Below are positions 5,204 through 36,292 of a DNA stretch of 61,996 nt, in pieces. This DNA comes from Streptosporangiales bacterium (GTDB taxonomy: Bacteria > Actinomycetota > Actinomycetes > Streptosporangiales > WHST01). The translations under genes were made by a program, and so were the position numbers. The stretch is taken from NCBI GenBank assembly GCA_009379825.1, contig WHTA01000028.1, forward strand, positions 1 through 61,996, read 5' to 3'. Every line of letters starts with the position of its first letter. Within the stretch, counting starts at the first letter, position 1. Under the pieces are notes generated by a model, which saw only the letters and a list, made by a program, of their open reading frames with translations, was not told the origin of the DNA and ran no database searches.

Positions 5204-6235
5204 TTACAGGTCGACCGGGGCCGGCGCCGGCTCGTCGAGCGTCGGGCCGATACCGAGCTTCTCCTTGATCTTCTTCTCCAGCTCGTCGGCGAGCTCGGGG
5301 TTGTCGCGCAGGAAGTTGCGGGCGTTCTCCTTGCCCTGGCCGAGCTGGTCGCCGTCGTAGGTGTACCAGGCGCCGGACTTGCGGACGAAGCCGTGCTCGA
5401 CACCGAGGTCGATCAGGCTGCCCTCCCGGCTGATCCCGACGTTGTACAGCAGGTCGAACTCGGCCTGCCGGAACGGCGGCGCCACCTTGTTCTTCACGAC
5501 CTTGACCCGGACCCGGTTGCCGACCGCCTCCTGGCCGTCCTTCAACGTCTCGATCCGCCGCACGTCCAACCGCACGGACGCGTAGAACTTCAACGCCTTG
5601 CCACCCGAGGTGGTCTCCGGGGAGCCGAAGAAGACGCCGACCTTCTCCCTGAGCTGGTTGATGAACACCGCCGTGGTGCCCGACTGGCTCAGCGCGCCGG
5701 CGAGCTTGCGCAGCGCCTGCGACATCAGGCGCGCCTGCAGGCCGACGTGGCTGTCGCCCATCTCACCCTCGATCTCCGCACGCGGCACGAGCGCCGCGAC
5801 CGAGTCGATGACGATGACGTCGAGCGCACCGGACCTGATCAGCATGTCGGCGATCTCCAGCGCCTGCTCACCGGTGTCCGGCTGGGAGACCAGCAGGCTG
5901 TTGGTGTCGACCCCGAGCTTCTCGGCGTAAATCGGGTCGAGCGCGTGCTCGGCGTCGATGAAGCCGGCGACCCCACCGGCCTTCTGCGCCTGCGCGACGG
6001 CGTGCAGGGCGACGGTGGTCTTACCCGAGGACTCCGGGCCGTAGACCTCCACGATCCGGCCCCTGGGCAGCCCGCCGATGCCCAACGCCACGTCGAGAGC
6101 GATCGCACCGGTCGGGATCACGGCGACCGGCACCCGGCCCTCGTCGCCCAACCGCATGACGGATCCCTTGCCGAACTGTCGCTCGATCTGTGCCAAGGCG
6201 GTGTCGAGTGCCTTGTCGCGGTCAGGTGCTGCCAT
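5204..6235 (-). CDS. recA: recombinase RecA
   Basis: RecA, the ATP-dependent strand-exchange protein and co-protease for LexA. The start is ATG 6235 ([10 protein letters not shown]), giving 343 residues, the normal size. The open frame extends further upstream, but that extension has no RecA similarity. Walker A is GPESSGKT at residues 66-73. Walker B ([10 protein letters not shown]), loop L1 and loop L2 ([11 protein letters not shown]...[17 protein letters not shown]) are intact. The C-terminus is acidic as usual. No intein is present. Regulation is indicated by a perfect SOS box 119 bp upstream and a second promoter-like element nearer the start. recX follows. Confidence 0.98.
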
Positions 6236-6552: not shown

Positions 6553-7041
6553 GTGACCGACGAGGTGTCCGCAGACGACTTCCGCGAGACGATGGCCACC
6601 TTCGCAACCGGGGTGGTCGTGCTCACCGCCCACACCGACGAGTACGGCGACGTCGGCAGCACGGTGACCTCGTTCAGCTCCGTGGCGCTCGAGCCACCGC
6701 TCGTGATGGCGAGCATCGGCACCCTCTCGCGGATGTTCGACACCATGGACACCCAGCCGCTGTGGGCGGTCTCCATCCTGTCCGCGGCGCAGCGGCAGAT
6801 CGCCGGCCGGTTCGCCGTGCCAGGACGGCCGGGCGGCGAGGTGCTGCTCACCGGCGTGCCGTACCACCGCGGCGAGCACACCGGCGCCCTGTTGGTGGAC
6901 GACGCCCTGGCGACCTTCGAGTGCCGCACGGCACAACGGGTCGAGGCCGGCGACCACACGCTGTTCATCGGCGAGGTGCTCGGCATCGACGGGCGCACCG
7001 ACGGCGAACCCCTGCTCCGCTACGCCCACAAGTACCGCTGA
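6553..7041 (+). CDS. flavin reductase family protein (FMN-binding split barrel)
   Basis: A 162-residue flavin reductase-like protein (PF01613 type). These use NAD(P)H to reduce FMN or FAD, often for a partner monooxygenase. Family features are the opening 'FRETMATFATGVVVLTA', 'STVTSFSSVALEPPLVMASI' (given in part) with the Pro-Pro-Leu strand, and the closing 'LLRYAHKYR'. The GTG at 6553 follows GGAGG by seven bases. No monooxygenase gene is adjacent. It lies between recA and DUF3046, which are often neighbours in actinomycetes, so it looks inserted there. It converges on the DUF3046 gene. Confidence 0.9.
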   Translation: MTDEVSADDFRETMATFATGVVVLTAHTDEYGDVGSTVTSFSSVALEPPLVMASIGTLSRMFDTMDTQPLWAVSILSAAQRQIAGRFAVPGRPGGEVLLTGVPYHRGEHTGALLVDDALATFECRTAQRVEAGDHTLFIGEVLGIDGRTDGEPLLRYAHKYR

Positions 7042-7057
7042 CCCGCCGGGGTCAGCG
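7036..7057. terminator. bidirectional hairpin terminator between convergent genes
   Basis: CGCTGACCC (7036-7044) pairs perfectly with GGGTCAGCG (7049-7057) around a GCCG tetraloop. The stem overlaps the last codons and stops of both the flavin reductase (ends 7041) and the DUF3046 gene (ends 7052), so one hairpin can serve both. Confidence 0.65.
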
Positions 7058-7252
7058 CTCGCGGTCGGGCAGGTCGAGCACGTCGCAGACCGCGCGCCAC
7101 ACCACCACGGCGTCGTAGCCGTCGGCCAGCGCCTTGTGCACCGTGCGGCCGCCGAGCGCCTCGATCACGTAGTCGCGCGCGAACGAGTCCGCGTACGCCT
7201 CGCCGAGGTGTCGCTCCATCCGCGCCCAGAACTCGGTACGCCACAGCGCCAC
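7052..7252 (-). CDS. DUF3046 family protein
   Basis: A 66-residue DUF3046 protein of unknown function, found near recA in many actinomycetes. Motifs are 'LWRTEFWARMERHLGEAYA' and 'ALGGRTVHKALADGYDAVVV', with a C-terminal 'VWRAVCDVLDLPDRER'. The open frame continues upstream to 7357, but the family is about 65 residues long and begins just before LWRTEFW, so the GTG at 7252 is chosen; a GGGGG stretch lies a few bases upstream. Confidence 0.85.
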   Translation of the reverse strand: MALWRTEFWARMERHLGEAYADSFARDYVIEALGGRTVHKALADGYDAVVVWRAVCDVLDLPDRER

Positions 7253-21451: not shown

Positions 21452-22249
21452 ATGCGCAAGGTCGTCGACACCCTGTTGCCCGTCACGATGGTGGGGTCGT
21501 ACCCGCGGCCGCTGTGGTACAAGCACCAGCTGCACGGCCAGGACATCAGGCACGGTGATCCGGGAGCAGGAGCTCGCCGGGCTCGACATCGTCACCGACG
21601 GCCAGATGTACTTCGACGACTACGGCGGCTCGATCAACCTCGCGCTCCACGTGCACTACGACCTGCCCGGCTGTCACTACACGAACCAGCGCTACCTCAC
21701 CGAGGACCTGGTGCCGGTCTTCAACGCAGAGCTGAAGGAGCTGGTCGCGGCCGGCGCGACGTTCATCCAGCTGGAGGATCTCGGCGCGTGGCTGCCGATC
21801 ATGTCCGGCGACAAGGACGACGCGAGGTACGTCGTGGACGTGATGAACCGCACGTTCGACGGCGTGGACGCGAAGCTCGCCTGGCACTGCTGCCTCGGCG
21901 CCGCGTACGGCAGCAGCAACCAGTCGCTGTGGGGCGGGCAGCTGAAGCAGATCATGCAGCCGCTGTACGACGTGGCGGTCGACCAGTTCGTACTCGGCTT
22001 CTCGCTGCGTGACATGGCCGACGTCGACGTGCTGCGCACGCTGCCGGAGGACAAGGAGGTCGCCGCCGGCGTCATCGACGTCCGCACCACGGAGGTCGAG
22101 AGCGCATCCGCAAGGTGCTCGACCACGTGCCGCCTGAGCGGGTGTACCTCACCACCAACTGCGGCATGCGCGTGCTGCCGAGGCTGATCGCGCAGACCAA
22201 GCTGATGGCGCTGGCACGGGGCGCCGCCGTAGTGCGCGACGAGCTGTAG
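21452..22249 (+). pseudogene. cobalamin-independent methionine synthase (MetE C-terminal domain)-like protein, broken twice
   Basis: A single-domain MetE-C-like TIM barrel. Ligands of the zinc site are visible as WHCCLG (His and Cys) and TTNCGM near the end (Cys); 'TDGQMYFDDYGGS' is a family motif. Three pieces in different frames make it up: 21452 to about 21553 (VGSYPRPLWYKHQLHG), 21555 to about 22100, and about 22100 to the TAG at 22247-22249 (RIRKVLDHVPPERVYL). Each junction also looks short by several codons compared with what I know of the family, so these are probably small out-of-frame deletions, not single-base slips. Such single-domain proteins are methyl-transferring enzymes of varied or unknown substrate. 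The MBL gene follows 10 bp later. Confidence 0.72.
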
Positions 22250-22259
22250 GAAGGGCCGC

Positions 22260-23216
22260 ATGCAGCCAGTGGACCGCATGGTCGTCACGACGGTCGTGGA
22301 GAACTACGTCGACATGCTGCTCGCGGACGAGCCGCAGGTCACCCGCACCGGGCTTGCGCACCACTTCGACCCGAAGAAGACCAACCCGCTCGGCGAGAAC
22401 GGCATCGCGCTGCACGTACTGCTGGAATGGGACAGGTACCGGTACCAGCTGCTGTTCGACACCGGCATGTCTGGGCAGGTGCTGCTGCACAACGCCGCGG
22501 CGATGGACGTCGACCTGGACGCCGTCGACCACCTGGTGATCAGCCACGGCCACCCCGACCACTACGGCGGCCTGCTCGCCCTGCTCGACCAGCGCACGGC
22601 AGCACTGCCGATCTCCATGCACGACGACGCGCTGCTGCCGCGCTACCTGCGGCTGGCGTCCGGCCAGGTGGCGCCGTACTACAACCACGACCTCACCCGT
22701 GGCGCGATCGAAGCACACGGGGGCCGGCAGGTCAGCCACGACGGCCCGCTCGAGGTCGGTCCTGGCGCGCTGGCGACGGGGCCGATACCGCGCGAGGTCG
22801 CGTTCGAGCAGCCACCATCGAGCATCACCACGCCGAACGCACTTATCCAGCTGGTGGACGGCGAGATGCGCCCCGACTCCGTACCGGACGACCAGGCGCT
22901 CGTCGTACGGCTCGGCGACGGCATCGTGGTGTTCACCGGGTGCAGCCACGCCGGCGTGGTGAACACCGTGAAGCACGCGATAGAGATCACCGGCGTCGAC
23001 CGGGTACGCGCCGTCTTCGGCGGTTTCCACCTCGGCTTCCCCGGCACCCCGGAGAGCAAGACCGACGCGACCATCGAGGAGCTACGCAACCTCGACGTCG
23101 ACCTGCTCTGCCCCATGCACTGCACGGGCATGGCCGCCATGATGCAGATCCGCGCGGCGTTCCCCGACCGGTTCCTGCTCAACTGCACCGGCACCGAAGT
23201 CGTCCTCGACAGCTGA
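22260..23216 (+). CDS. MBL-fold metallohydrolase
   Basis: A 318-residue metallo-beta-lactamase-fold protein with the metal motif HGHPDH at 96-101, a later 'TGCSHAGVVNT' His and 'FGGFHLG' His. This arrangement fits the branch annotated after the archaeal dihydropterin-phosphate synthase in tetrahydromethanopterin formation, but bacterial members are of unknown substrate. A C-terminal 'LCPMHCTGMAAMM' adds conserved His and Cys. It follows the MetE-like gene by 10 bp with GGAAGGG in the gap, so the two are co-transcribed; a pterin or folate methyl donor is a natural, untested link. Confidence 0.85.
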   Translation: MQPVDRMVVTTVVENYVDMLLADEPQVTRTGLAHHFDPKKTNPLGENGIALHVLLEWDRYRYQLLFDTGMSGQVLLHNAAAMDVDLDAVDHLVISHGHPDHYGGLLALLDQRTAALPISMHDDALLPRYLRLASGQVAPYYNHDLTRGAIEAHGGRQVSHDGPLEVGPGALATGPIPREVAFEQPPSSITTPNALIQLVDGEMRPDSVPDDQALVVRLGDGIVVFTGCSHAGVVNTVKHAIEITGVDRVRAVFGGFHLGFPGTPESKTDATIEELRNLDVDLLCPMHCTGMAAMMQIRAAFPDRFLLNCTGTEVVLDS

Positions 23217-23219
23217 CCG

Positions 23220-23942
23220 CTACCGCCCGCCCTGCGGGTCCCGCTGCTGGCTCCGATCCGCCCGCGGGTCCTTGTCATGTCGCTTCGCCCCTGACCGTCC
23301 GGCCGCACGCTGACCCGCCGGCCGGACGGTGACGTTCGGGGCGTTCACGTGCAGGCCACGCTGAACTCGCGGATCCGTCGGCTGGGTGTATGTGACGCGC
23401 CCCTCATCCGGGCTGTTCAGCGTCACGCCGCCGTGGATGCCCTTCACGTCGAGGTGGCCGGACTGGGTCGTCAGCACCACGTTGCCACCGACATTGTCCA
23501 CGGTCATCGTGCCGGCACGGGCGAGCGCGTTCACGTCGCCGCGCACGTCGATCAGGTCCATGTCACCGCCGTTGGCCGTCAGCTTGACCGGACCCGACAC
23601 TCCCCGACCGACGACGTTGCCCGCCTCGCTGCGGACCGACGACCCCTGGTCGAACCGTCCACGCAGCTCGAGGTCCGACCGGTCGAGCTGCACGTCCAAC
23701 CGGGTACCGACGGGGACGCGCACGTCGATCCTGCCCACCTCGTCAGGACGTGCACCGTCCGGCGAGGCGGGTATCTCGATCTGTCGGACGTGCGAGTCGG
23801 GACGGGCCGGGATGTCACCCGGCCGCTGCTGCTCGTACGGGCCTGACTGGTGATGTCCCTGACACCATGCGCTCTCGGCTGACCCGCACCAGCGAAGACG
23901 AGCGCGTGGGGTCCGCGGTGATGGATACCGGTATTCGGGCAC
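23220..23942 (-). CDS. DUF4097-like beta-repeat protein
   Basis: Up to 240 residues. The middle (about residues 65-190) is a right-handed beta-solenoid of the DUF4097/adhesin type, made of short strands ending in Gly-Asn or Asp: 'SDLELRGRFDQGSSVRSEAG', 'NGGDMDLIDVRGDVNALAR', 'TVDNVGGNVVLTTQSGHLDV'. The C-terminal 40 residues are basic and low in complexity. The usual N-terminal membrane segment is missing, and the first ~50 residues look non-coding; a GTG near 23789 is an alternative start. It may be a truncated or frameshifted descendant of a membrane-anchored protein. It is convergent with the MBL gene. Confidence 0.5.
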   Translation of the reverse strand: MPEYRYPSPRTPRARLRWCGSAESAWCQGHHQSGPYEQQRPGDIPARPDSHVRQIEIPASPDGARPDEVGRIDVRVPVGTRLDVQLDRSDLELRGRFDQGSSVRSEAGNVVGRGVSGPVKLTANGGDMDLIDVRGDVNALARAGTMTVDNVGGNVVLTTQSGHLDVKGIHGGVTLNSPDEGRVTYTQPTDPRVQRGLHVNAPNVTVRPAGQRAAGRSGAKRHDKDPRADRSQQRDPQGGR

Positions 23943-24343
23943 CTTCGGCCGAGCGGATCTGCAGCAAGTTCGGGCGATCAGCGGGCGTGTGGGCCGGTCG
24001 CGGTCTCGGTCAACGGGGCTCCTCGGTCACTGGAACGGCAACGTCCAGCCTCGGACGTGCGAGACGCGATCCGGTTCCTGCGTCGCGATGGCCGGCCAGC
24101 TCTTGACAGATTGGGTTTAGATCCAATCCTTATCTCGTTCCCTCCGAGGGACGTTCAATGGCGAGCCCCGACTCCAGCTACCGCTGTCCAGAACGCCCCA
24201 ACGCCTGACCACCGCGCCACCACCGCGGGCTGCACGGGCTGGCCGGCCACCCTCCCGGTCGCTACCAGGCGAGCACCAACACCACCGTTGTTGCCAAGCG
24301 CATCGCCGCTGCTTGCGCCCCGACCAGCACGAAGGAGCCCCCT
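23943..24343. other. 401-bp gene-free leader of the importer operon
   Basis: No supported gene lies here. It contains the promoter/operator listed next, a 13-bp dyad TCCCTC-C-GAGGGA at 24139-24151 and a 16-codon open frame at 24158 without a ribosome site. A leader of about 200 bases would precede the substrate-binding protein gene. Confidence 0.5.
24103..24133 (+). promoter_or_regulatory. promoter with overlapping palindromic operator
   Basis: TTGACA (24103-24108) is a perfect -35 box and CCTTAT (24128-24133) a weak -10 candidate, with a longish spacer of 19. Directly after the -35 lies an imperfect palindrome at 24109-24128: arms GATTGG and CCAATC around GTTTAGAT, 16 of 20 positions symmetric. 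A repressor bound there would block RNA polymerase. The FCD/GntR regulator at the end of this operon is the obvious candidate. Confidence 0.55.
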
Positions 24344-25897
24344 ATGGCGCGCTCGAACCCGGTCACCCGTCGGTCCTACCTACGCTGGGCGGCCGTCGCG
24401 ACAGCGGCCGGCCTGGCCTTGACCGGCTGCTCGCTGAGCAGCGACAGCGGTGACGAGGGCGACGACGGCTCGAAGCAGTCGCTGACCGTGGACATCCCGA
24501 ACTACCCGGCCAGTCTCGACCCCGGCCTGCAGTACGACTCGGCCAGCTACACGGTCTACCGCAACGTCTTCGACCAGCTGCTCCGCAGGGACCCGAAGAC
24601 ACAGAAGGTGGTGCCGTGGGTCGCGGACTCATGGAAGCGGGTCGACGCCACCACCTGGACATTCAAGATCCACGACGGGATCGAGTTCAGCAACGGTGAG
24701 GAGCTGACCGCCGACGACGCCGCGTTCAGCATCAACCGGATCCTGAAGAAGTCCCTCAACAGCCCGCAGTTCGCCAACTTCAGCGCCATCAGCAAGGCGA
24801 CGGCGAAGGGTGACGAGCTGACCGTCGAGACCCACGAACCTTCGCCGACGCTGCTCTCGTACCTGACGACGCTCAGCGTCGTGCCCGAGGACTACGTGAC
24901 GAAGGTCGGCGACGAGAAGTTCAACACCGAGCCCGTCGGCTCGGGCGCGTTCCAGATCACCTCGACCACCAGCGGCTCGACCGTCGAGATGAAGGCGAAC
25001 ACCAAGTACTGGAAGGACGAACCCGACGTCAAGAAGGTCACCTTCCGCGCGGTGCCGAACGTCGCCACCAGGGTAGCCGACCTCAAGTCGGGACGAGCCG
25101 ACATCGTCACCCAGCTGACCCCGGACGACGCAGTCGACCTCAAGGGCGGCGGGCAGGCCAACGTGCTCTCCGTACCGACGGAACGGATCTCCTACCTCGC
25201 GCTCAACACCGCCGGCGACGCGCCCACGAAGGACGTCAAGGTGCGGCAGGCGGTCGCCCACGCCATCAACTACCCGTCCATCATCAAGAACCTGCAGCAC
25301 GGGTATGCCAAGCAGGTGAAGTCCGTGGTAACCCCGCTGGCGTTCGGCTACCCGAAGGACGTCTCCGGGTACGACTACGACCCGGCGAAGGCCAAGCGAC
25401 TGCTCAAGGAGGCGGGCAGCGGATCGCGCACCCTCGTCTTCCCCACGTCGCCGTCCTACGACCCGCAGCTCACCCAGGCCATCCAGGCGGACCTGCAGAA
25501 GGTCGGCTTCAAGGTCAAGCTGGTCAACTCCGACCAGGCGACGTTCCTCAAGAAGGTGCAGAGCCCGAAGCACGACTGGGGCAGCCTCAGGTTCGGCCGC
25601 TGGTCGTGCTCCTGCCTCGACGCCGATGGCGTGATCTACCCGCTGTTCCGCAGCGACACGGTCTGGTCGAGCTACTCCAACCCGCAGTTCGACAAGGCGG
25701 TCGACGCAGCCCGTAGCACCACCGACACCGCGAAGCGGGAAACCGAGTACGGCAAGGCGTTCGGCATCATGCAGCGCGACGTGCCCGGTATCGGCCTCTA
25801 CCAGGACTACGCGATCTACGGCACCGCGAAGAACATCTCCTGGAAGCCGGACGCACAGGAGAACTTCTTCGTGACCGACGTCGAGTTCAACGGTTGA
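24344..25897 (+). CDS. ABC importer substrate-binding lipoprotein (family 5, peptide/nickel type)
   Basis: A 517-residue solute-binding protein of the DppA/OppA class. The N-terminus has an RR-containing, Tat-like signal (TRRSYLRW) and a lipobox LTGC with Cys29, so it is lipid-anchored outside the membrane. SBP_bac_5 features are 'LDPGLQYDSASY', 'VPWVADSWKRVDATTWTFKI' (partial), 'DGIEFSNGEELTADDAAFS' and 'YLALNTAGDAPTKDVKVRQA'. It captures the transported compound and hands it to the two permeases downstream. It opens the operon; its stop overlaps the first permease start by four bases. Confidence 0.93.
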   Translation: MARSNPVTRRSYLRWAAVATAAGLALTGCSLSSDSGDEGDDGSKQSLTVDIPNYPASLDPGLQYDSASYTVYRNVFDQLLRRDPKTQKVVPWVADSWKRVDATTWTFKIHDGIEFSNGEELTADDAAFSINRILKKSLNSPQFANFSAISKATAKGDELTVETHEPSPTLLSYLTTLSVVPEDYVTKVGDEKFNTEPVGSGAFQITSTTSGSTVEMKANTKYWKDEPDVKKVTFRAVPNVATRVADLKSGRADIVTQLTPDDAVDLKGGGQANVLSVPTERISYLALNTAGDAPTKDVKVRQAVAHAINYPSIIKNLQHGYAKQVKSVVTPLAFGYPKDVSGYDYDPAKAKRLLKEAGSGSRTLVFPTSPSYDPQLTQAIQADLQKVGFKVKLVNSDQATFLKKVQSPKHDWGSLRFGRWSCSCLDADGVIYPLFRSDTVWSSYSNPQFDKAVDAARSTTDTAKRETEYGKAFGIMQRDVPGIGLYQDYAIYGTAKNISWKPDAQENFFVTDVEFNG

Positions 25898-26868
25898 CAG
25901 TGCGCTCTGTCGGTCGGTTCGTCTCGTCCGGGCCACTGCGCTACGTCGCTGGTCGAGCAGGTCAGGCGCTGCTGTCGATCGCCGGCGTGTCCGTGATCGT
26001 GTTCGTCACCCTGCGGCTGTCCGGCGACCCGAGCAGGCTCCTGGTGCCGGACAACGCCACGGCAGAGGACGTAGCGAGGGTGCGGCACGAGCTCGGCCTG
26101 GACGAACCGATCTGGGTCCAGTTCGGCCGCTACCTGGCCGGTCTGGTGCAGGGCGACCTCGGCTACTCCTACGTGCAGCATCGCCCGGCGTTCGACCTCA
26201 TCATGGAACGGTTGCCCTTCACCATCGACCTCGCGATCGCCGCGCTGCTGCTCTCGCTGGTCGTCGGGATCCCGACGGGCATGATCAGTGCGCTGTACCG
26301 CAACCGGCTACCGGAACGGTTGCTGATGCCGATGGTGCTCGTCGGGCAGTCCATGCCGGCGTTCTGGACGGGGATCCTGCTCATCCTGCTGTTGAGCGTG
26401 CGGTTCCAGCTGCTGCCGTCCACCGGTGTCGAGGGGGTGCAGTCGCTCATCATGCCGGCGATCACACTGGCGTCGCTGTCCATGGCGACGATGGCGCGGA
26501 TCACCAGGTCGAGCTTCCTCGAACAGCTCGACCAGGACTACGTTCGGACGGCGCGCGCGAAGGGCGTAGGTACCGGCCGGCTGCTCGGCCGGCACCTGCT
26601 GCGCAACGCGTCGATACCGATCGTCACGCTGGCGGGTCTCGAGCTGGCCAGCCTGCTCGGCGGCGCGGTCATCACCGAGACGATCTTCGCCTGGCCGGGC
26701 ATCGGCCAGCTGACCGTCCAGTCCATCGAGGCCCGCGACTTCCCCGTGGTGCAGGCGATCGTCCTGTTCGTCGCGATCGTGTACATCGTGGTGAACCTGC
26801 TGATCGACCTGCTCTACGGGCTGATCGACCCGCGGGCCAGCCTGGTGACGAGCGAGGCCGGCGCATGA
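25894..26868 (+). CDS. ABC importer permease, DppB type
   Basis: A 324-residue inner-membrane permease with six TM segments. The N-terminal TM is 'ALLSIAGVSVIVFVTLRLS', followed by the exported loop 'LGLDEPIWVQFGRYLAGLVQ' and the typical 'GDLGYSYVQHRP'. The EAA motif is 'DYVRTARAKGVGTGRLLGRH', which docks the ATPases. The TTG start at 25894 overlaps the previous stop; a GTG at 25900 is possible. It overlaps the second permease by four bases. Confidence 0.93.
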   Translation: MTVRSVGRFVSSGPLRYVAGRAGQALLSIAGVSVIVFVTLRLSGDPSRLLVPDNATAEDVARVRHELGLDEPIWVQFGRYLAGLVQGDLGYSYVQHRPAFDLIMERLPFTIDLAIAALLLSLVVGIPTGMISALYRNRLPERLLMPMVLVGQSMPAFWTGILLILLLSVRFQLLPSTGVEGVQSLIMPAITLASLSMATMARITRSSFLEQLDQDYVRTARAKGVGTGRLLGRHLLRNASIPIVTLAGLELASLLGGAVITETIFAWPGIGQLTVQSIEARDFPVVQAIVLFVAIVYIVVNLLIDLLYGLIDPRASLVTSEAGA

Positions 26869-27771
26869 GCAGCACGGTGACACCGCAGCAGCTGGAGTCG
26901 CTGCCACCTGAACCACAGCAGGGCAACCTCGGTCGGCTGCTCGCCCGGGCCCGCCGGTCGTACCAGATCTGGCTGTTCCTCGCGCTGCTGTGCGGCTTCG
27001 CGTTGCTCGCCATCGCACCAGGGCTGTTCACCGGCACCGACCCCACGCAGTCCGACCTGCCGGCACGGCTGCTGCCGCCCGGTTCGACACACGAAGGCAC
27101 GTACCACGTGTTCGGCACCGACCAGCTCGGCCGCGACGTGTTCAGCAGGGTGGTCTACGGGTCCAGGATCTCGCTGGCCATCTCGCTCGCCGCGGTGCTC
27201 GGCGCCGGCGTGCTCGGCAGCGCACTCGGCATCGCGGCGGCGTTCCTCCGCGGCGTCGGCGGCGCGATCGGCCGACATGGTTTTGTCGATCCCGTTCTTC
27301 CTGCTCGCGATCCTCACCGTGGTCGTGCTCGGCCCGAGCCTGGTCAACGTCGTCGCGGTGCTCGTGCTCGTACGTTGGCCGCGGTACGCGCGGGTAGCCT
27401 TCGCGCAGACGCTGGAGACGCGCGGACGTGACTTCGTCCGTTCTGCGGTGGCGATCGGCTCGACGCCGTGGCGCGTGGTGCTGCGGCACATCGTGCCCGA
27501 GGTCGTGCCGTCGATCATCGTCGTGGCGACGCTGGAACTCGGGCTGATGGTGATCTACGAGGCGTCGCTGTCGTTCATCGGACTCGGGGTGCAGCCGCCG
27601 GACCCGAGCTGGGGTTCGATGCTCTCCGACGGCCAGGAGTACGTGTCGCAGGCATGGTGGCTCGCCACGTTTCCCGGCCTCGCCCTGTTCCTGCTGGTGC
27701 TTTCTGTGAACATGCTGGGCGACTTCATCCGCGACCAGCTGGACCCGTCCGAGCGCTCGGCGCGCATGTGA
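26865..27771 (+). pseudogene. ABC importer permease, DppC type, with frame break
   Basis: The second permease, about 300 residues. The N-terminal part carries 'HVFGTDQLGRDVFSRVVYGS', a DppC hallmark, and the C-terminal part carries the EAA loop 'TLETRGRDFVRSAVAIGSTP' and 'YEASLSFIGLGVQPPDPSWG'. Near 27265 the frame changes between ...FLRGVGGAI and ADMVLSIPFFLLAI. Three or four residues normally found between these are missing, which suggests a short out-of-frame deletion rather than one slipped base. If real, the importer would be non-functional even though every other component is intact. That makes an assembly error at least as likely. Confidence 0.82.
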
Positions 27772-27787
27772 CTGCAGAGGAGACCAA

Positions 27788-28582
27788 GTGACCGAGACCC
27801 ACGAGGGCCAGCGCGTCGTCATCACCGGTGCCACCGGGGTGTTCGGCGAGTGGATCTCCGCGGCGTTCGCACGCGGCGGCGCCGAGCTGCTGCTCACCGA
27901 CGGACGCGCAGAACCACTGGAACAGCTCGCGAGCCGGCTGGCGGCGCAGGGCGCGCAGGTCCACACGCAGCCGGCCGACCTGACCAGCCCGGCGGACATC
28001 GAGGCGCTCACCGCTCGCTGCGGCGAGCTGTGGGGCAGCCCAGACGCGCTCGTCAACAACGCGGGCATCTACCCGCGCGGCTGGCTGCTCGACATGACGC
28101 GCGAGCATTTCCAGCACATCCTGGACGTGAACCTGCTCGCCCCGTTCCAGCTCACCCAGGCCGTCGCACGCCAGATGATCGACAACGACGTGGCCGGCAG
28201 CATCGTCAACCTCAGCTCGGGGGCGGCTCATTCGACCCAACCGGGCGGCGGCCCGTACTCCACGAGCAAGGCGGCCGTGGCGATGTTCACCCGCGCCTGC
28301 GCGCTCGAGCTCGCGCCGTACGGGATCCGGGTGAACGCGGTGTCTCCCGGCTTCGCCCCAGGCAGCGAGGTCAGCCAGCTGGACGAGAGCCACATCGATG
28401 CCATGACCACCTCGATCCCGCTGGGCCGCACGTCGGGACCGCAGGACGCGCCGGAAGCCGTGCTGTTCCTCTGTTCCGACCGGGCGTCGTTCATCACCAG
28501 CTCGACGATCACCGTGGACGGCGGCCGCACCGCCGGTACGTTCAACGCGGCCAAGCACGGCCGGCCGGAGGAGCGCCGGTGA
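27788..28582 (+). CDS. short-chain dehydrogenase/reductase (SDR)
   Basis: A 264-residue classical SDR. Features are the nucleotide motif TGATGVFG (residues 13-20), NNAG, and the catalytic Ser...Tyr-x3-Lys as 'NLSSGAAHS' and 'PYSTSKAA', plus 'PYGIRVNAVSPG' and a terminal 'ITVDGGRTAG'. It should oxidise or reduce an alcohol/ketone with NAD(P). The GTG start follows GAGGAGA. It lies inside the importer operon, 16 bp after the permease, and overlaps the next gene by four bases. It is therefore likely to act on the imported compound or its breakdown product. Confidence 0.9.
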   Translation: MTETHEGQRVVITGATGVFGEWISAAFARGGAELLLTDGRAEPLEQLASRLAAQGAQVHTQPADLTSPADIEALTARCGELWGSPDALVNNAGIYPRGWLLDMTREHFQHILDVNLLAPFQLTQAVARQMIDNDVAGSIVNLSSGAAHSTQPGGGPYSTSKAAVAMFTRACALELAPYGIRVNAVSPGFAPGSEVSQLDESHIDAMTTSIPLGRTSGPQDAPEAVLFLCSDRASFITSSTITVDGGRTAGTFNAAKHGRPEERR

Positions 28583-29424
28583 CCCAATACCTCTGGCCGG
28601 ACGCCGCCCCCGCGGCGGTGCTGCTCACGTTCGACGTGGACGCCGAGGCACCGCACCTGTGGCGGTCGAGGAACGAGGGCCCGCGGCTGGCCGAGCTGGA
28701 ACAGCGCAGGTTCGGTCCCCGCGCCGGTGTCGCGCGCCTGCTCGCACTGCTCGACGCGCACCAGCTGACCGGCACGTTCTACGTGCCGGGGCACACCGTC
28801 ACCCGGCACCCGCAGGTGGTCGCGGAGATCGCCGCAGCCGGCCACGAGCTCGCCCTGCACGGATACCTGCACGAACCACCCACGCAGATCGAACCGGCCA
28901 TGTTCCGCGAGACCATGGTGCGCAGCATCGACGCGCTCGGGAACGTCACAGGCGCACAGCCGACCGGTTACCGATCGCCCAGCTGGGACATGACTGCGGC
29001 CGCCTTCGAGGTCCTGCGCGAGCTCGGCATCACCCACGACAGCTCGCTGATGGGATACGACCACCCGTACTGGGTCGGCGACCTCGTCGAGGTGCCGGTC
29101 GACTGGGCCACCGACGATGCTCCGTTCTACCGGTACGTCGGCAAGGGTGACACCAGACCACCGACCGCACCGACGGCACTTATCGACGCGTGGCACACCG
29201 AGCTGACTGCTGCGTGCCGGTTCGGCACCCTGCTCAACATCACCATGCACCCGTGGCTGTCCGGCCGTGCCGCACGCGCGCAGGCGCTCGACTCGCTACT
29301 CGCGGCGATCCGGGCCAGCGGCGCATGGACCGGCACGGTCGACGCGCTGGCCGCCTGGCATGCGGCGAACCACCGCCAGCCGCGGATCGAGCTCGACGAG
29401 CTGATGGGGCACGGCGATGGGTGA
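28579..29424 (+). CDS. polysaccharide-deacetylase-family hydrolase
   Basis: A 281-residue NodB-fold (carbohydrate esterase 4-like) hydrolase without a signal peptide. Motifs are 'LLTFDVDAEAP' (first Asp pair), 'TGTFYVPGHTV', 'GHELALHGYLHEPP' (HxxxH metal site) and 'TGYRSPSWDMT' (Arg/Trp motif). Cytoplasmic members with this pattern include PuuE-type allantoinases and cyclic imide hydrolases, acting on C-N bonds rather than polysaccharide. It overlaps the SDR by 4 bp and the following ATPase by 8 bp. In an importer operon it probably deacetylates or opens the imported substrate. Confidence 0.87.
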   Translation: MTQYLWPDAAPAAVLLTFDVDAEAPHLWRSRNEGPRLAELEQRRFGPRAGVARLLALLDAHQLTGTFYVPGHTVTRHPQVVAEIAAAGHELALHGYLHEPPTQIEPAMFRETMVRSIDALGNVTGAQPTGYRSPSWDMTAAAFEVLRELGITHDSSLMGYDHPYWVGDLVEVPVDWATDDAPFYRYVGKGDTRPPTAPTALIDAWHTELTAACRFGTLLNITMHPWLSGRAARAQALDSLLAAIRASGAWTGTVDALAAWHAANHRQPRIELDELMGHGDG

Positions 29425-30421
29425 GCCCGCGGCCGCGTCCGGTGACGACGTCGTGCTCGACGTGGCTGACGTCTCGGTGACCTTCGGCGAACGACGCGAC
29501 CGGCTCGCGCTCTCCCGGGTCTCGTTGCAGCTCACCGCCGGCAAGGTGATGGCCGTCGTCGGCGAGAGCGGCTGCGGCAAGAGCCTCACCGCGCTGACCG
29601 TGATGGGCCTGCTCCCGCGCGACGCCCACGTCGTGCAGGGACAGGTGGAGGTCTGCGGCTCACCGGTCGTCGGCGCGTCCGAGCGACAGCTGAGGAAGCT
29701 GCGCGGGCGCGACGTGGCGATGGTGTTCCAGGACCCGATGCTCGCGCTCAACCCGCTGCAGCCGATCGGCCGGCAGATCGCCGAACCGCTGGAGCTGCAT
29801 ACCAGCATGAGCCGGTCAGCCAGGTACGCCAGGGTGCTCGAACTGCTCGACGCCGTCGGCATCTCCGACCCGAGGTCGCGTGCGCGCCAGCTGCCGCACG
29901 AGTTCTCCGGCGGTCTGCGCCAGCGCATCACCATCGCGATCGCCCTGGCCTGCCGGCCGCGGTTGCTCATCGCGGACGAACCGACCACCGCGCTGGACGT
30001 CACCATCCAGGCGCAGATCCTCGACCTGCAGCGCGAGCTCACCGGCGCACAGGACACGGGCGTGCTGTTCATCACCCACGACATGGGCGTGGTGGCGGAG
30101 ATCGCCGACGAGGTCAGCGTCATGTACGCGGGGCACGTAGTCGAGTCCGGACCGGTACGTGACCTCTTCGCCCACCCCACGCATCCGTACACCCGCGCAC
30201 TGCTGCGCAGCGTCCCGCGGCCGGACACACCGACGCAGGACGATCTCCCGACCATCGCCGGCCGGGTACCCGCGCCAGGGGAAGCGGGTGCCGGGTGCCC
30301 GTTCGAGGACAGGTGCGAGTACCGCTCGGCGCAGTGCGCGACCCGCCCCGGCCTCGACCTGGTACGCGCCGCGCACCGGGTGGCCTGCTGGCACCCCTAC
30401 GGCGAGGAGGATGCCGGATGA
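29417..30421 (+). CDS. ABC importer ATP-binding protein, DppD type
   Basis: A 334-residue ATPase of the peptide/nickel import family. Features are Walker A GESGCGKS, Q-loop VFQDPMLALNP, signature FSGGLRQR, Walker B LLIADEPTTALD and the switch His in 'FITHDMGVV'. The C-terminal oligopeptide/dipeptide extension carries the four-cysteine cluster (GCPFEDRCEYRSAQCATRP... and a later AC) that binds an iron-sulfur cluster in DppD. It is translationally coupled to the genes on both sides. Confidence 0.94.
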   Translation: MGEPAAASGDDVVLDVADVSVTFGERRDRLALSRVSLQLTAGKVMAVVGESGCGKSLTALTVMGLLPRDAHVVQGQVEVCGSPVVGASERQLRKLRGRDVAMVFQDPMLALNPLQPIGRQIAEPLELHTSMSRSARYARVLELLDAVGISDPRSRARQLPHEFSGGLRQRITIAIALACRPRLLIADEPTTALDVTIQAQILDLQRELTGAQDTGVLFITHDMGVVAEIADEVSVMYAGHVVESGPVRDLFAHPTHPYTRALLRSVPRPDTPTQDDLPTIAGRVPAPGEAGAGCPFEDRCEYRSAQCATRPGLDLVRAAHRVACWHPYGEEDAG

Positions 30422-31413
30422 CCGTCACACCCACCGACCTCGTCGAGGCGGACAACGTCACGAAGGCCTACTCCGTACGGACCAGGCGGGGCAGGCGCGA
30501 CCTGGTCGCCGTCGACCAGGTGTCGCTGCGGATCGCAGAGGGGAAGACCGTCGGCCTGGTCGGCGAGAGCGGCTGCGGCAAGAGCACGCTCGGCCGGCTG
30601 CTGCTGAACCTGGAACGCGCCAGCTCCGGCAGCGTCACGTTCGACGGGCAACCGATCAGCGGGCTTGCCGGTGCCGAGATGCGGAAGGTGCGCAGGGACG
30701 TCCAGATCGTCTTCCAGGACCCGTACGCGTCGCTCAACAGCCGGATGACCGTCGGGCAGCTCGTCGCCGAGCCGTTCCGCGCCCACGGCCTGCACCGCGA
30801 ACGCGACGTGCCCGCCGAGGTCGCCACGCTGCTCGACCTGGTCGGCCTGCCGCCGGAGGCAGCGAAGCGGTACCCGCGGCAGCTCTCCGGCGGTCAGCGG
30901 CAGCGGGTCGCGATCGCCAGGGCGGTCGCCCTGCGCCCGCGCTTCGTGGTGTGCGACGAGCCGGTGTCCGCGCTCGACGTGTCCGTGCAGGCGCAGGTGA
31001 TCAACCTGCTGCGGCGGCTGCAGCGTGAGCTTGGCCTCACCTACCTGTTCATCAGCCACGACCTGGCCGTGGTGCGCTACCTGTGCGACGAGACGGCCGT
31101 CATGTACCTGGGCCACCTGGTCGAGCAGGCACCCACGGCCGAGCTGTTCGCCGACCCGCGACACCCGTACACGCAGATCCTGCTCTCGGCGATTCCCGTG
31201 CCAGACCCTGAGCTCGGCGGGGACCGCAGGATCCGGCCGCAGGGCGAGGTCCCCAGCCCGCTGCAACGACCGAGTGGCTGTGCGTTCCGCACGCGGTGCC
31301 CGCTGGCCACCGAGCGCTGCGTGACCGAGCGTCCTGAGTTGCGCGAGCTGTCGTCCGGCCACCTGGCCGCCTGCCACTACGCGGAGACCGCCGACGTGAA
31401 GGGCACGATGTGA
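30418..31413 (+). CDS. ABC importer ATP-binding protein, DppF type
   Basis: A 331-residue second ATPase, starting at ATG 30418 with a 4-bp overlap. Features are Walker A GESGCGKST, Q-loop VFQDPYASLN, signature LSGGQRQR, Walker B FVVCDEPVSALD and switch His in 'FISHDLAVV', plus the C-terminal Cys motif 'GCAFRTRCPLATERC'. It pairs with the DppD-type protein to drive the permeases. It overlaps the acylase gene by four bases. Confidence 0.95.
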   Translation: MTVTPTDLVEADNVTKAYSVRTRRGRRDLVAVDQVSLRIAEGKTVGLVGESGCGKSTLGRLLLNLERASSGSVTFDGQPISGLAGAEMRKVRRDVQIVFQDPYASLNSRMTVGQLVAEPFRAHGLHRERDVPAEVATLLDLVGLPPEAAKRYPRQLSGGQRQRVAIARAVALRPRFVVCDEPVSALDVSVQAQVINLLRRLQRELGLTYLFISHDLAVVRYLCDETAVMYLGHLVEQAPTAELFADPRHPYTQILLSAIPVPDPELGGDRRIRPQGEVPSPLQRPSGCAFRTRCPLATERCVTERPELRELSSGHLAACHYAETADVKGTM

Positions 31414-33704
31414 CCAACCCGAACGACGTCGTCTCGATCGCGCGGGACGAGCACAGCATCCCGACGGTCACGGCCTCGACCGAGCACGACGCCTGGTTCG
31501 GCCTCGGTTACGCGGCGGCCGAGGACCGGCTCTGGCAGCTGGAGTACGACCGGCGCCGCGCGTGCGGCCGCTGGGCGGAGGCGGCCGGCCGCGAGGGGCT
31601 GCCTGCGGACCGGCTCGCCCGCAGGCTCGACCTGGAGACCGCCGCGCACGCCGACATCGCGGCGATGGACGAGCGCACGCTGAGCAGCTTCACCGCGTAC
31701 GCCGATGGGATCAACGCCAAGGTCGAGAGCGCAGGTCTGCCACCCGAGTACGAGGCCGCGGGCATCGGTTGGGAGCCCTGGCAACCGTGGCAGTCGGTGG
31801 CCGCGTTCAAGATCCGGCACGTGCTGATGGGCGTGTGGCAGTACAAGCTCGCCCGCGCCGTGGTGCTCGCCACCGAGGGCCAGGAGGCGTTCGACTGGCT
31901 CGGGCCAGGACCGCTGCCCGGCATGCGCGTGACGGTGCCGGCCGGCGGCCGGCTCGGCGAGCAGTCGCCCGAGCTGCGCGCACTGCTGGACGACGCGCGC
32001 GCCGACATCGTGGCGTCCGCCGAATCCCTCGGCTTCCTCGCCGAGGTCGAGGCCGGCTCCAACGCCTGGGTGGTGGCCGGCTCACGGACGACCACCGGCG
32101 CGCCGATCCTGTGCAACGACTCGCATCGCGCGCTCGACGTCCCCAACGTCTACTGGCAGGCGCACCTGCGGTGCCCACAGTTCACCGTCTCCGGCGGCAC
32201 CTTCCCCGGCATCCCCGGCTTCCCGCACTTCGGCCACAACGAGCACGTCGGCTGGGCGATCACCAACGCGTCGGCGGACGCGCAGGACCTGCTGGTGGAG
32301 GAGTTCCGCGAGGCCCCCGGCGGGCTCGAGGTGCGTACGACGGAAGGCTGGCAGCCCGTCGAGCAGACGGTGAGCACCATCGAGGTACGCGGCGGCGGCA
32401 CCGAGCAGGTGACGTCCTACCGCACCCCGAACGGCCCTGTGGTGCACGGCGACCCGCGTACCGGGCTGGCACTGAGCCTGCGGTGGACGGCGACCGCGGA
32501 ACCCTGCCGACAGTTCGGCGTGCTACGCCGGATGCTCGACGCGCGTACGGTCACCGAGCTGCTCGACGCACAGGACGGCTGGGTCGACCCGGTGAACAAC
32601 CTGCTGGCCGCCGACACCGCCGGCAACATCGGATACCTGCTGCGCGGCACGCTCCCGCGGCGGGAGCGGCCTGCTCTGCAACAGGTGCCGATGCCGGGCT
32701 GGCAACCGCAGTCGCAGTGGTCCGGGCTGCACCCGTTCAGCGCGATGCCGCGGGAGGAGAACCCGCCAGAAGGCGTGCTCGCGAGCGCGAACAACACGAT
32801 CGTCGAACCGTCGCCGCGGCTGACCGTCAGCCACGCGGTGAACGACTCGTACCGGGTGGAGCGCATCCACGAGCTGCTCCACGGCCGTACGCAACACTCG
32901 CTCGCCGACCTCGCCGGCTACCAGGGCGACGTGACCTCCGTCGCCGCACGGCGGTGGGGCGTTGCACTCGCTGCGCGCGGCCCGTACGAGGGGGATGCAG
33001 AGCTGGCCAGGGCCATGCTGGCCGGGTTCGGCGGCCGGCTGGCGGCCGACGGCGGGGGCGGGTTGGTGTACGCGTGCTTCCGGCGGGCGCTCGCCGGGCT
33101 GCTGCTCGGCGAACGGCTGCGCCCTGCGACCGTCGCCTTCCTGTTGGGCGGGCGGCTGCCGGCGGCCGCCGTACTGGCCCGCCGCTGGTTCGCACAGCTC
33201 ACCTGGCCGCTCGAACCCGGCAGCGCACCGGTGGACCAGCTCGACGACGCCGTACTCACCACGGCACTCGCGCAGGCTTGGCAGGACGCCTGCGCGCTCG
33301 CCGGCGACGACGCGACGCGGTGGCGGTGGGGCGACCACCACGGCCTGGTCGGCAAGCACACCCTCCAGGCGGTGCGCGAGCGCTATCGCGACCGGGTGAC
33401 CGCGCCGCTCGGCGGCGACAACGAGACGGTGCAGAACGCCTCGTACTCCTGGCCGCGCGACGAACCGTTCACGGTGGCCAACTGCGCGGTGTACCGCCAG
33501 GTGCTCGACCTCGGCGATCTGACACGCTCGTTGTGGGTCATCCCCGGCGGCGCGAGCGGCGACCTCGACTCACCGCACGCCACCGACCAACTGCGCATCT
33601 ACCAACAGCACGGACACTTGCCGATGAAGCACCACACGGCAGAATCGGCATGCCACATACTCGAACTCCGACCGAAACCCGACAGCCACGAGGGCCGCCG
33701 TTGA
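31410..33704 (+). CDS. penicillin-acylase-family (Ntn) N-acyl hydrolase, no signal peptide
   Basis: A 764-residue Ntn-hydrolase precursor of the penicillin acylase family. Such proteins cut themselves before a Ser, and that Ser becomes the nucleophile. Here it is Ser217 in EAGSNAWVVAG, followed by 'TGAPILCNDSH'. 'GYAAAEDRLWQLEYDRR' marks the alpha subunit; a beta-subunit Asn is in 'VLASANNTI'. Unlike most relatives it has no signal peptide, so it should work in the cytoplasm. The GTG start overlaps the ATPase stop. Substrates of the family are acyl amides (beta-lactams, acyl-homoserine lactones, acyl-peptides). Being in the importer operon, it probably deacylates the imported molecule. Confidence 0.9.
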   Translation: MTNPNDVVSIARDEHSIPTVTASTEHDAWFGLGYAAAEDRLWQLEYDRRRACGRWAEAAGREGLPADRLARRLDLETAAHADIAAMDERTLSSFTAYADGINAKVESAGLPPEYEAAGIGWEPWQPWQSVAAFKIRHVLMGVWQYKLARAVVLATEGQEAFDWLGPGPLPGMRVTVPAGGRLGEQSPELRALLDDARADIVASAESLGFLAEVEAGSNAWVVAGSRTTTGAPILCNDSHRALDVPNVYWQAHLRCPQFTVSGGTFPGIPGFPHFGHNEHVGWAITNASADAQDLLVEEFREAPGGLEVRTTEGWQPVEQTVSTIEVRGGGTEQVTSYRTPNGPVVHGDPRTGLALSLRWTATAEPCRQFGVLRRMLDARTVTELLDAQDGWVDPVNNLLAADTAGNIGYLLRGTLPRRERPALQQVPMPGWQPQSQWSGLHPFSAMPREENPPEGVLASANNTIVEPSPRLTVSHAVNDSYRVERIHELLHGRTQHSLADLAGYQGDVTSVAARRWGVALAARGPYEGDAELARAMLAGFGGRLAADGGGGLVYACFRRALAGLLLGERLRPATVAFLLGGRLPAAAVLARRWFAQLTWPLEPGSAPVDQLDDAVLTTALAQAWQDACALAGDDATRWRWGDHHGLVGKHTLQAVRERYRDRVTAPLGGDNETVQNASYSWPRDEPFTVANCAVYRQVLDLGDLTRSLWVIPGGASGDLDSPHATDQLRIYQQHGHLPMKHHTAESACHILELRPKPDSHEGRR

Positions 33705-34369
33705 CCGTACCGCGTTCGACGTTCCTGCGGGCCGCGTACGAGCACGTACGGGCCGCGGTCGTCGACGGTACGCTGCCGCCCGGTGCACGAGTGACGGTGC
33801 GGCCGCTGGCCGAGGAGCTCGACCTCAGCCCCACCCCCATCAAGGCGGCACTGGCCACCCTCGAACGGGAAGGCTTCCTCGTCTCCGTGCCGCACCGCGG
33901 CTACTTCGTACCCGAGGTGGAGACCAAGGACCTGCTGGAGATCTACGAGCTGCGCGAGGCCGTCGACGGGATGGCCGCTCGGCGCGCGGCGGTCGCCGCG
34001 AACCGCGCCGAGGTAGCCGACCGCCTGCAGGAGCTGCTCGACGAGCAACGCAAGCTCGTCGAGAAGGGCGACCTCCGTTCGTACGGCGAGTCCGACGTGG
34101 AGTTCCACCACCTCATCTGGGAGAGCTCGGGGAACCTGCGGCTGCTCGCCATGGCGGAGAACCTCACCGCGCAGGTGCGGCTGGCCAACCGATACTCCGC
34201 CCGGGCACCTGGACGCCTACCCGGCGCACTCGACGAACACGAGGCGATCGTCGCCGCCATCAGGAACGACAACGCCAGGACCGCGGAACGCCACGTACGC
34301 CGCCACGTCCGCCAGTCGGCGGAGGCGCTGCGCCGCTACGCCCGCACCGAGCAGGAGTCCGGCGGCTAG
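33701..34369 (+). CDS. GntR-family regulator, FCD type
   Basis: A 222-residue one-component regulator. Residues 1-70 are a winged helix ('LSPTPIKAALATLEREGFL', 'SVPHRGYFV') and residues 75-215 an all-helical FCD ligand domain ('LLEIYELREAVDGMAARRA', 'DVEFHHLIW', 'DEHEAIVAAI', 'RHVRRHVRQS'). FCD domains bind small organic acids, often with a metal. The TTG start at 33701 overlaps the acylase stop and follows GAGGG by six bases. As the last gene of the operon it is the likely repressor acting at the palindrome near 24109-24128. Confidence 0.9.
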   Translation: MTVPRSTFLRAAYEHVRAAVVDGTLPPGARVTVRPLAEELDLSPTPIKAALATLEREGFLVSVPHRGYFVPEVETKDLLEIYELREAVDGMAARRAAVAANRAEVADRLQELLDEQRKLVEKGDLRSYGESDVEFHHLIWESSGNLRLLAMAENLTAQVRLANRYSARAPGRLPGALDEHEAIVAAIRNDNARTAERHVRRHVRQSAEALRRYARTEQESGG

Positions 34370-34415
34370 GCGCTCACCAGTGGCCAATGCCGCACACGCG
34401 GCGCAGACTGGAAGT

Positions 34416-34913
34416 ATGACTGATACGCCACGTTTCGACCCGATCAGCATGGCGTGGAACACCGTCGCCAGCTACGACTCGTACGAGAACGCGCAGGGCG
34501 CGGTCGACTACCTCTCCGACCACGACTTCCCGGTGGCGAACGTCGACATCGTCGGGTCCGACCTGCGCCTCGTCGAGCGGGTGACCGGACGGCTCACCAA
34601 GGGCCGCGCCGCGGCCGCCGGCGCCGCAAGCGGAGCCTGGTTCGGGCTGTTCATCGGCCTACTGGTCGGGCTGTTCACCAGCGGCCCCGCATGGGTGGGG
34701 CTGATCCTCGGCGGGCTGATCCTCGGCGCGGCCTGGGGCGCCATCTTCGGCTTCGTCGGGCACGCCGCCACACGCGGCAAGCGCGACTTCTCCAGCGTCA
34801 AGACGCTCGTCGCGAGCCACTACGACGTCATCGCGTCCGGCGGGCACGCGGAACAAGCCCGCACCCTACTGAGCGACGGCGGCCTGTTGCCTGGCACTGC
34901 CGCTGGCCAGTAA
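34416..34913 (+). CDS. general stress protein 17M-like membrane protein
   Basis: A 165-residue protein of the general-stress-protein-17M type. It opens with 'VASYDSYENAQGAVDYLSD' and 'VANVDIVGSDLRLVERVTG', typical of the family's soluble domain. Two Gly-zipper TM segments follow ('AWFGLFIGLLVGLF', 'VGLILGGLILGAAWGAIFG'), then a 'YDVIASGGHAEQA' end. Function is unknown; B. subtilis YflT is sigma-B induced. The ATG at 34416 is preferred because the family starts here, but an in-frame GTG at 34380 would add 12 residues. It is monocistronic. Confidence 0.8.
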   Translation: MTDTPRFDPISMAWNTVASYDSYENAQGAVDYLSDHDFPVANVDIVGSDLRLVERVTGRLTKGRAAAAGAASGAWFGLFIGLLVGLFTSGPAWVGLILGGLILGAAWGAIFGFVGHAATRGKRDFSSVKTLVASHYDVIASGGHAEQARTLLSDGGLLPGTAAGQ

Positions 34914-34919
34914 GGACGG

Positions 34920-35288
34920 TCATGTGTAAAAACCGACGCTCTTCACCCGCCAGCCGATGTCGCTGCGGTAGTGACGGAGGTACAGCGTCGTCCGGTAGTC
35001 CTCCCGGATCGACAGGTTCCCTGTGCACTTCCTCCCGTCCCGAGCCCAGACATTGAGATCGACGACGTTCCCATTGGGGCGCACGAACTCCGCCGAGGCA
35101 AACCCGGTGAAGGCCCGGACGCAAAGAGTGTCCGTCAGGTCGTCCCAATGCGCCCTGGCATCAGGATCCTTCGCTGTAGCAGCGCGGTCGATCTTGAGCG
35201 TCACGTCGTTCGCCCACGCAGGTGATGCCAACATCGTCGTCGACAACACGGCAGAGACGAATGCAACCAAGAGCGTTCGCCGTCTCAT
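34920..35288 (-). CDS. small secreted protein of unknown function
   Basis: A 122-residue secreted protein. It has a clear signal peptide (MRRRTLLVAFVSAVLSTTML, cleavage after AWA). The mature ~96 residues have one cysteine pair (DTLCVRAF and GRKCTGNL) and a 'RTTLYLRHYRSDIGW' stretch. It looks like a small beta-rich exported domain. No family is recognised. It is convergent with the stress-protein gene, 7 bp between stops. Confidence 0.7.
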   Translation of the reverse strand: MRRRTLLVAFVSAVLSTTMLASPAWANDVTLKIDRAATAKDPDARAHWDDLTDTLCVRAFTGFASAEFVRPNGNVVDLNVWARDGRKCTGNLSIREDYRTTLYLRHYRSDIGWRVKSVGFYT

Positions 35289-35401
35289 CGGGTCTCCCAG
35301 AGGGCATCGGTCGCCTACCGATGCCTAGAATGCACAGTGCTGAAAGATGCGGCACGAGCATCGAGAAAGTCTCGACAGCGCGTGATGGTCGGAAGCGCTG
35401 C

Positions 35402-36292
35402 CTAGTCGTACTCGGTCAGGGCGTCGATCACCTGCCTGGCGTTCCTCTGCGCATAGTCCGAGTAGCAGTTGTTCCACAGCGAGTGCACCTCGCGGGCCTG
35501 CCCGGCAAGCTCGCGCACCCGCGGCGCCCAGGCGGCCACCTCGTCCCCGCTGTACAGGTAGCCGAACCGTTCGTAGATGTCGCGGCTGGTCCAGTTGTCG
35601 CTGTGTCCGTGGAAGCGGATGACGGCGAGGTCCGCGGTCGCGGCGACCACCGGGCGCACCGAGCTGGTGTGTCCCTGCGGCATGTCCACGCATACGTACG
35701 GCAGCGCGTACTTCTCCAGGAAGTCGAGCGTCTCGCGCTCGTTCTCCTCGCTCAGCCAGGTCTTGTTGCGGAACTCCACGCAGATCGGCATCGGGTCGGC
35801 ACGCTCGCGGCAGCGCAGGATGTACTCCCTGTTGCGCTTGCCGATCACGAACCACTGCGGGAACTGGAACAGCAGCGCGCCGAGCTTGCCGGCCTCGTGC
35901 AGCGGCTGGAGCGCACCGAGGAAGCGTTCCCACACCTGCTCGACGACGTCGTCGTCGAGGTCCTTCAGGTAGACGTTCTTCGTGGTCTCCGGTCGCAGGT
36001 CCTTGTACAGCGCGCGGGGCTTGGTGGGGTGCTGGGTCAGCAGCGAGAACGCCTTGACGTTGAACGTGAAGCCGGGCGGGGTGCGCTCGACCCACGACCG
36101 CGCGACGTTCTCGTTCGGCGGCGAGTAGTACGTCGAGTCGACCTCGACGAGCGGGAACTGCTCCGCGTAGTACTTCAGCCTGGCTTCCGGCGTGGTCGCG
36201 TCGCTCGGGTACCAGCCGGACGCGAGCAGCGTCTTGTCGGTCCACGACGCGGTGCCCACCTTGACCGTGCCGTCCGCGCCCTGTGCCGCCAT
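35402..36292 (-). CDS. DUF72 domain-containing protein
   Basis: A 296-residue DUF72 TIM-barrel protein (YecE-like), widespread and of unknown function. Motifs are 'KVGTASWTDKTLL', 'RLKYYAEQFPLVEVDSTYY', 'FTFNVKAF', 'LGALLFQFP', 'CVEFRNKTWL' and 'VIRFHGHSDNW'. The frame is open far upstream over the start of lhr, but homology starts at KVGTAS. The ATG at 36292 is therefore chosen (36310 is an alternative). It is divergent from lhr, with only 58 bp between starts. Confidence 0.9.
   Translation of the reverse strand: MAAQGADGTVKVGTASWTDKTLLASGWYPSDATTPEARLKYYAEQFPLVEVDSTYYSPPNENVARSWVERTPPGFTFNVKAFSLLTQHPTKPRALYKDLRPETTKNVYLKDLDDDVVEQVWERFLGALQPLHEAGKLGALLFQFPQWFVIGKRNREYILRCRERADPMPICVEFRNKTWLSEENERETLDFLEKYALPYVCVDMPQGHTSSVRPVVAATADLAVIRFHGHSDNWTSRDIYERFGYLYSGDEVAAWAPRVRELAGQAREVHSLWNNCYSDYAQRNARQVIDALTEYD

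Follow-up and report, generated by a model that had tools for sequence, protein, structure and literature searches.

Regulators of the FadR (FCD) subfamily of GntR proteins combine a GntR winged helix with an FCD domain and use a short, A/T-flanked palindrome by their own operon; a survey of the subfamily gives the site consensus TKGT/ACMA, with 2–3 nt between GT and AC, and lists exceptions (PMC4494728). HypR of Streptomyces coelicolor is an FCD repressor that covers the −10 region of its own promoter; its motif is CTNTGC(A/C)ATGTCAC, it serves hydroxyproline genes and it is not encoded by the last gene of an importer operon (PMC6608401). In Corynebacterium glutamicum the paralogues GntR1 and GntR2 occur in one genome and share one binding site, with TNGTNNNACNA-like sites and a gluconate regulon (PMC2230225). 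The locus described here lies in the window, by which we mean the whole analysed stretch of 61,996 nt. It shares with the subfamily at large the protein architecture and a short palindrome beside the operon that encodes the regulator, with HypR a predicted autorepressor site over the presumed −10 region, and with C. glutamicum the presence of two paralogous regulators in one genome. It differs from the surveyed sites in its core, TTRG-AT-CYAA, in which GG/CC stands in place of the usual GT/AC and G or A replaces the T of GT (PMC4494728). The window site itself (TTAG-AT-CCAA) has no GT/AC and so departs from TKGT/ACMA but, as the surveyed exceptions indicate, this weakens the description ‘typical site’ and not the membership of the protein in the subfamily.

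Gene organization and the regulators

The genes of the importer operon (Table 1) all lie on the + strand and overlap or almost touch from 24344 to 34369, an arrangement that would suit a single transcript. The last gene encodes a protein with an N-terminal GntR winged-helix domain (PF00392, E 2.1e-11) and a C-terminal FCD domain (PF07729, E 1e-25) related to solved FCD proteins, and the window regulator is therefore a member of the FadR/FCD subfamily of GntR. The preliminary description had placed the regulator gene at the far end of the operon, about 9.5 kb from the promoter site, and this is correct, the distance being about 9.6 kb. The DppC-type gene is split by a shift of frame near 27260–27280, whereas it is a single open frame in the relatives and in the C5 paralogue, so the window operon may be decaying or misassembled.

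Table 1. Coordinates of the promoter elements and genes of the importer operon in the window.
Feature	Position	Strand	Evidence
TTGACA, presumed −35	24103..24108	+	sequence; TTGAC(A/G) 5′ of site in 10/10 aligned promoters
20-bp imperfect palindrome of the preliminary description, GATTGGGTTTAGATCCAATC	24109..24128	.	left arm 24109–24114 not conserved
TTAGATCCAA, core operator (predicted), consensus TTRGATCYAA	24117..24126	.	genome counts, ten-promoter alignment, matrix, 10-mer test
AATCCT, weak candidate −10, spacer 16, overlaps right half of operator	24125..24130	+	hexamer comparison
First gene: family 5 extracellular solute-binding protein with a lipoprotein-like start	24344..25897	+	
DppB-type permease	25894..26868	+	
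DppC-type permease, two frames, apparent frameshift	26865..27771	+	
Short-chain dehydrogenase	27788..28582	+	
Polysaccharide-deacetylase-like protein, GTG start overlapping preceding stop	28579..29424	+	
DppD-type ATPase	29417..30421	+	
DppF-type ATPase	30418..31413	+	
Penicillin-amidase-family hydrolase	31410..33704	+	
GntR/FCD regulator, proposed to bind the operator; TTG start (probable) overlaps the stop codon of the amidase gene	33701..34369	+	

When 394 genomes of the class were searched with the regulator, a second gene was found in the same genome (C5:52616–53269) whose product is 72% identical to the window regulator. It too is the last gene of an operon, which runs solute-binding protein, M20 peptidase, DppBCDF, PGA_cap protein, regulator. 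The solute-binding proteins encoded by the first genes of the two operons are only 24% identical. The DNA-binding segments of the two regulators are nearly identical. Both operons have long presumed leaders of more than 200 nt (24131–24343 in the window and L023 4071–4333 at the other), and an Rfam search of these two leaders at E up to 5 returned only sub-threshold, chance-like matches and none at gathering level.

Plasmid p1 of Agrobacterium leguminum (L010, 11153–20472) has the same order of solute-binding protein, two permeases, short-chain dehydrogenase, polysaccharide deacetylase and two ATPases, but a gamma-glutamyltransferase replaces the amidase and a different GntR protein stands at the front; TTNGATCNAA is absent from 25 kb around this operon. 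This suggests that the importer operon is common to distant bacteria, with hydrolase and regulator swapped. The open-access literature search gave no paper joining GntR, penicillin acylase and a peptide transporter.

The importer promoter and its palindrome

The perfect TTGACA and the palindrome immediately 3′ of it, on which the preliminary description rested, are both present: GATTGGGTTTAGATCCAATC adjoins TTGACA directly, its six-base arms are exact and eight of its ten position pairs are complementary. TTGACA occurs nine times in the window (both strands), and GATTGG-N8-CCAATC only once in the 6.15 Mb genome. A palindrome of this quality, in which the outer six pairs and no fewer than 8/10 in total are complementary, is present in 20 windows of 20 bp within these 62 kb, most of them G+C-rich, so the palindrome alone is unremarkable. 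The proposal that it is itself the operator has in its favour the exact arms, the 8/10 symmetry and the uniqueness in the genome, and its TTGG (24111–24114), 9 nt from the centre of TTAGATCCAA, could be a weak extra half-site; extra half-sites at 7–12 nt are reported for GntR sites in the survey (PMC4494728). Against this, a register symmetric at 8/10 position pairs in the window shows symmetry at only 1–3/10 when the nine related promoters are read in it, and none of the other aligned promoters, that of the 72% identical regulator in the same genome included, has the GATTGG left arm. The palindrome is thus in the wrong register and is ruled out as the conserved unit, and we think it very unlikely to be the operator.

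A consensus scan of 22000–36000 found no sigma-70-like promoter, no −10 reaching the scan's rule. The best hexamers 3′ of TTGACA are CAATCC (spacer 15) and AATCCT (spacer 16); in four relatives CAAAAT is found at a spacer of 17–18, and its A and T belong to the right half of the operator. Of the idea that the spacer is filled up to the presumed −10, the TTGACA half stands, but the −10 is weak and has no consensus hexamer.

A conserved element in the promoters of regulator operons

What the promoters do share is TTAGATCCAA, a variant of (A)TTTTGGATCCAAAA(T) whose centre lies 19–25 bp past the start of TTGAC and whose fuller form in relatives is ATTTTGGATCCAAAAT. In the window 8 bp separate it from TTGACA, and it extends over the spacer and the −10 end of the promoter; its centre, between 24121 and 24122, is 3 bp off that of the palindrome. 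The promoter of the C5 operon reads TTGACA-9 nt-TTAGATCCAATCCTT and that of the window operon TTGACA-8 nt-TTAGATCCAATCCTT, a common element of 15 bases. TTRGATCYAA is found at exactly two places in the 6.15 Mb genome, in the window and at C5:44056, against about 0.56 occurrences expected under a second-order model based on the window; the reversed control is found nowhere, and a relaxed pattern with TTGAC recovers the same two places only. Both sites precede importer operons that end in the 72% identical regulator genes.

Across ten aligned promoters TT-GATC-AA is invariant, TTGAC starts 19–25 bp before the centre, and in all ten the site lies 3′ of the −35, reaching into the −10 region. With a symmetrised matrix built from the nine other promoters (leave-one-out) the window site at 24114–24129 ranks first, scoring 21.7 against 7.95 for the next; with a matrix from seven promoters of other genera the scores are 20.5 and 7.8. 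Since the motif seen initially in the window and at the paralogue was what led to most of the related sites, these comparisons are partly circular. A further test used gene starts only: in the 300 bp before the first gene of nine promoters (the window and eight others, G001:C24 being omitted) the best shared 10-mer without prior alignment is TTAGATCCAA itself, with six mismatches summed over the eight other promoters, as against 13–15 in every one of 15 runs with shuffled promoter sets. The comparison thus favours TTAGATCCAA, and not the palindrome, as the conserved switch.

The site also lies in an open frame through 24057–24140 that reads VRDAIRFLRRDGRPALDRLGLDPILISFPP and presumably resembles LacI, so that it might be a relic of coding sequence with the palindrome incidental. 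This explanation is scarcely credible, since the frame has no Pfam match even at E 10 and the conserved element, in the ten-promoter alignment, matches promoters in unrelated surroundings; the 10-mer test likewise disfavours it.

Distribution of the site and of the regulator

The order search covered 345 genomes for the regulator at E up to 1e-45 and gave eight genes in seven genomes. Five relatives from this order (G760, G765, G759, G955 and G1054) have this operon too, again closed by the regulator gene; a threonine-synthase-like gene stands first, followed by solute-binding protein, DppBC, dehydrogenase, deacetylase, DppDF and amidase. Most matches of the operon proteins to those of the window are 47–71% identical; in G1054 the part with solute-binding protein, permease, dehydrogenase and deacetylase is matched in pieces or not at all. 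Upstream of the threonine-synthase-like gene the first four carry TTGACG + ATTTTGGATCCAAAA (site ATTTTGGATCCAAAAT), and G1054 has TTGACA with a degenerate TTTGATCTAA. The promoters of G760, G765, G759 and G955 are close to one another and are therefore not four independent cases. In G025 the site lies between divergent thrC-like and regulator genes, and in G370 it is 5′ of a thrC-like/regulator pair. The motif search in orthologous operons that had been proposed as a check has thus located a site 5′ of the first gene in the relatives, but one without the GATTGG arm.

Two further occurrences were noted. In G001:C24 (L200) TTAGATCTAA stands at 2579, 5′ of a deacetylase-like gene; some 4 kb from this site is a related regulator gene (6661–7151) that is split between reading frames. 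On plasmid pDEIPE01 of Deinococcus peraridilitoris, from a different phylum, TTAGATCTAA (L056:5931, 5920–5945) is about 40 bp before the gene of a 39% identical regulator.

Elsewhere the searches were largely negative. Direct DNA conservation was seen in neither of two other genomes of the genus, the solute-binding protein used as a probe had no match at E 1e-90 in 393 other genomes of the class and found one remote locus among the named genomes, and in a phylum draw of 396 genomes the regulator was found in its own genome only.

The regulator genes that passed the threshold in the class and order searches number 18 (the two of this genome, G025, G370, eight of genus g54, G001:C93 and five other relatives), and nine of them have the site nearby in the fetched stretch. 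It is absent from the fetched stretches of the eight g54 regulators and of G001:C93, and from that of a lower-scoring regulator homologue of Deinococcus psychrotolerans. The DNA-binding segment reads VRP in 9/9 genes with the site and VRL or VRV in 9/9 without; as the Deinococcus gene with the site reads VRE, this correlation is only a lead. In genus g54 (L026 and relatives) the stretch between the MocR-like and oxidoreductase genes contains a block of strong conservation in which ATTGGTCC...ATTGGACC is repeated; this is perhaps the site of the MocR regulator.

Strict sites number two in G000 and one each in G001, G025 and G370, all at the regulator operon (that of G001 broken). G760 has one, G765 three, G759 four, G955 three and G1054 none; the operon accounts for one site in each of these genomes but G1054, leaving two, three and two further sites in G765, G759 and G955. 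Among genomes in which the regulator lacks the site or no regulator was found, G002, G136 and G176 have none, G061 one and G104 two. Over the class TTGAC-N8..11-TTRGATCYAA matches 15 places in 14 of 394 genomes; four are beside the regulator, which is absent from the locus of about 3 kb at the other 11 and from wider stretches for five of these. In a viral collection the site pattern gave more than 120 matches and was uninformative.

In G759:C1 (L215) two TTGGATCCAA sites stand 62 bp apart, at 6673 and 6735. This pair is 640–700 bp upstream of a GntR/FCD-like gene in an unrelated operon, and as the encoded regulator is only 26% identical the motif may serve other FCD regulators. The open-access literature search found no paper linking TTGGATCCAA to a GntR regulator, and the titles returned for TTGGATC with GntR operator were irrelevant; among the first 20 of 156 titles for TTGGATCCAA alone, primer-like use excepted, none concerns a bacterial regulator.

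Discussion

From the evidence of position and conservation we have considerable confidence that TTAGATCCAA is the operator of the FadR/FCD regulator encoded at the end of the operon, and that this protein would repress the whole operon, its own gene included. The idea of an operator that overlaps the promoter of the importer operon and is read by the FCD regulator is thus supported by sequence comparison, with a different operator and a different centre. The promoter would drive peptide importer, dehydrogenase, deacetylase, amidase and regulator as one operon; a regulator dimer bound at TTAGATCCAA would exclude RNA polymerase from it (steric repression), and the regulator would be released by a small ligand in the FCD domain, most likely a carboxylate or an amino-acid-like compound derived from the imported substrate. 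As the regulator gene is the last of the repressed unit, repression would limit the regulator too. Repression and negative autoregulation are what position, gene layout and family precedent suggest, and because relatives keep the site beside the same type of regulator the operon is very probably self-repressing via its last gene. An amide- or peptide-like compound is suggested by the importer and the amidase, together with the threonine-synthase-like gene that the relatives carry.

A bound regulator could instead activate, as FadR-type proteins can from other positions (PMC6608401, citing FadR and CitO), but a site 3′ of the −35 and overlapping the −10 in 10/10 promoters is in a blocking position, and we regard activation as very improbable. 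A more plausible variant, compatible with repression by the window regulator, is that the site is read also, or mainly, by the C5 paralogue, giving crosswise control. The same 15-base element at both operons is consistent with this, as are the 72% identity of the two regulators and the close likeness of their DNA-binding segments, whereas in relatives that have a single regulator the site is at that regulator's own operon. Crosswise control is possible though not the favoured outcome, and likely enough to test since the two GntR paralogues of C. glutamicum share sites (PMC2230225).

Repression by the window regulator would make the window operon an otherwise ordinary autoregulated catabolic operon. 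A broader proposal is that a group of FCD regulators extending from Actinobacteria to Deinococcus reads an TTTTGGATCCAAAA operator with a GG/CC core, near-fixed behind TTGAC, and that this promoter cassette has moved between unrelated importer and threonine-synthase operons; we would put the chances of this as evenly balanced. TTAGATCCAA provides a concrete, testable candidate operator for an uncharacterised group of FCD regulators and corrects the earlier proposal by 3 bp and in extent. With motif and regulator tied in this way, the regulon and the likely substrate of the importer and amidase would become predictable in related genomes.
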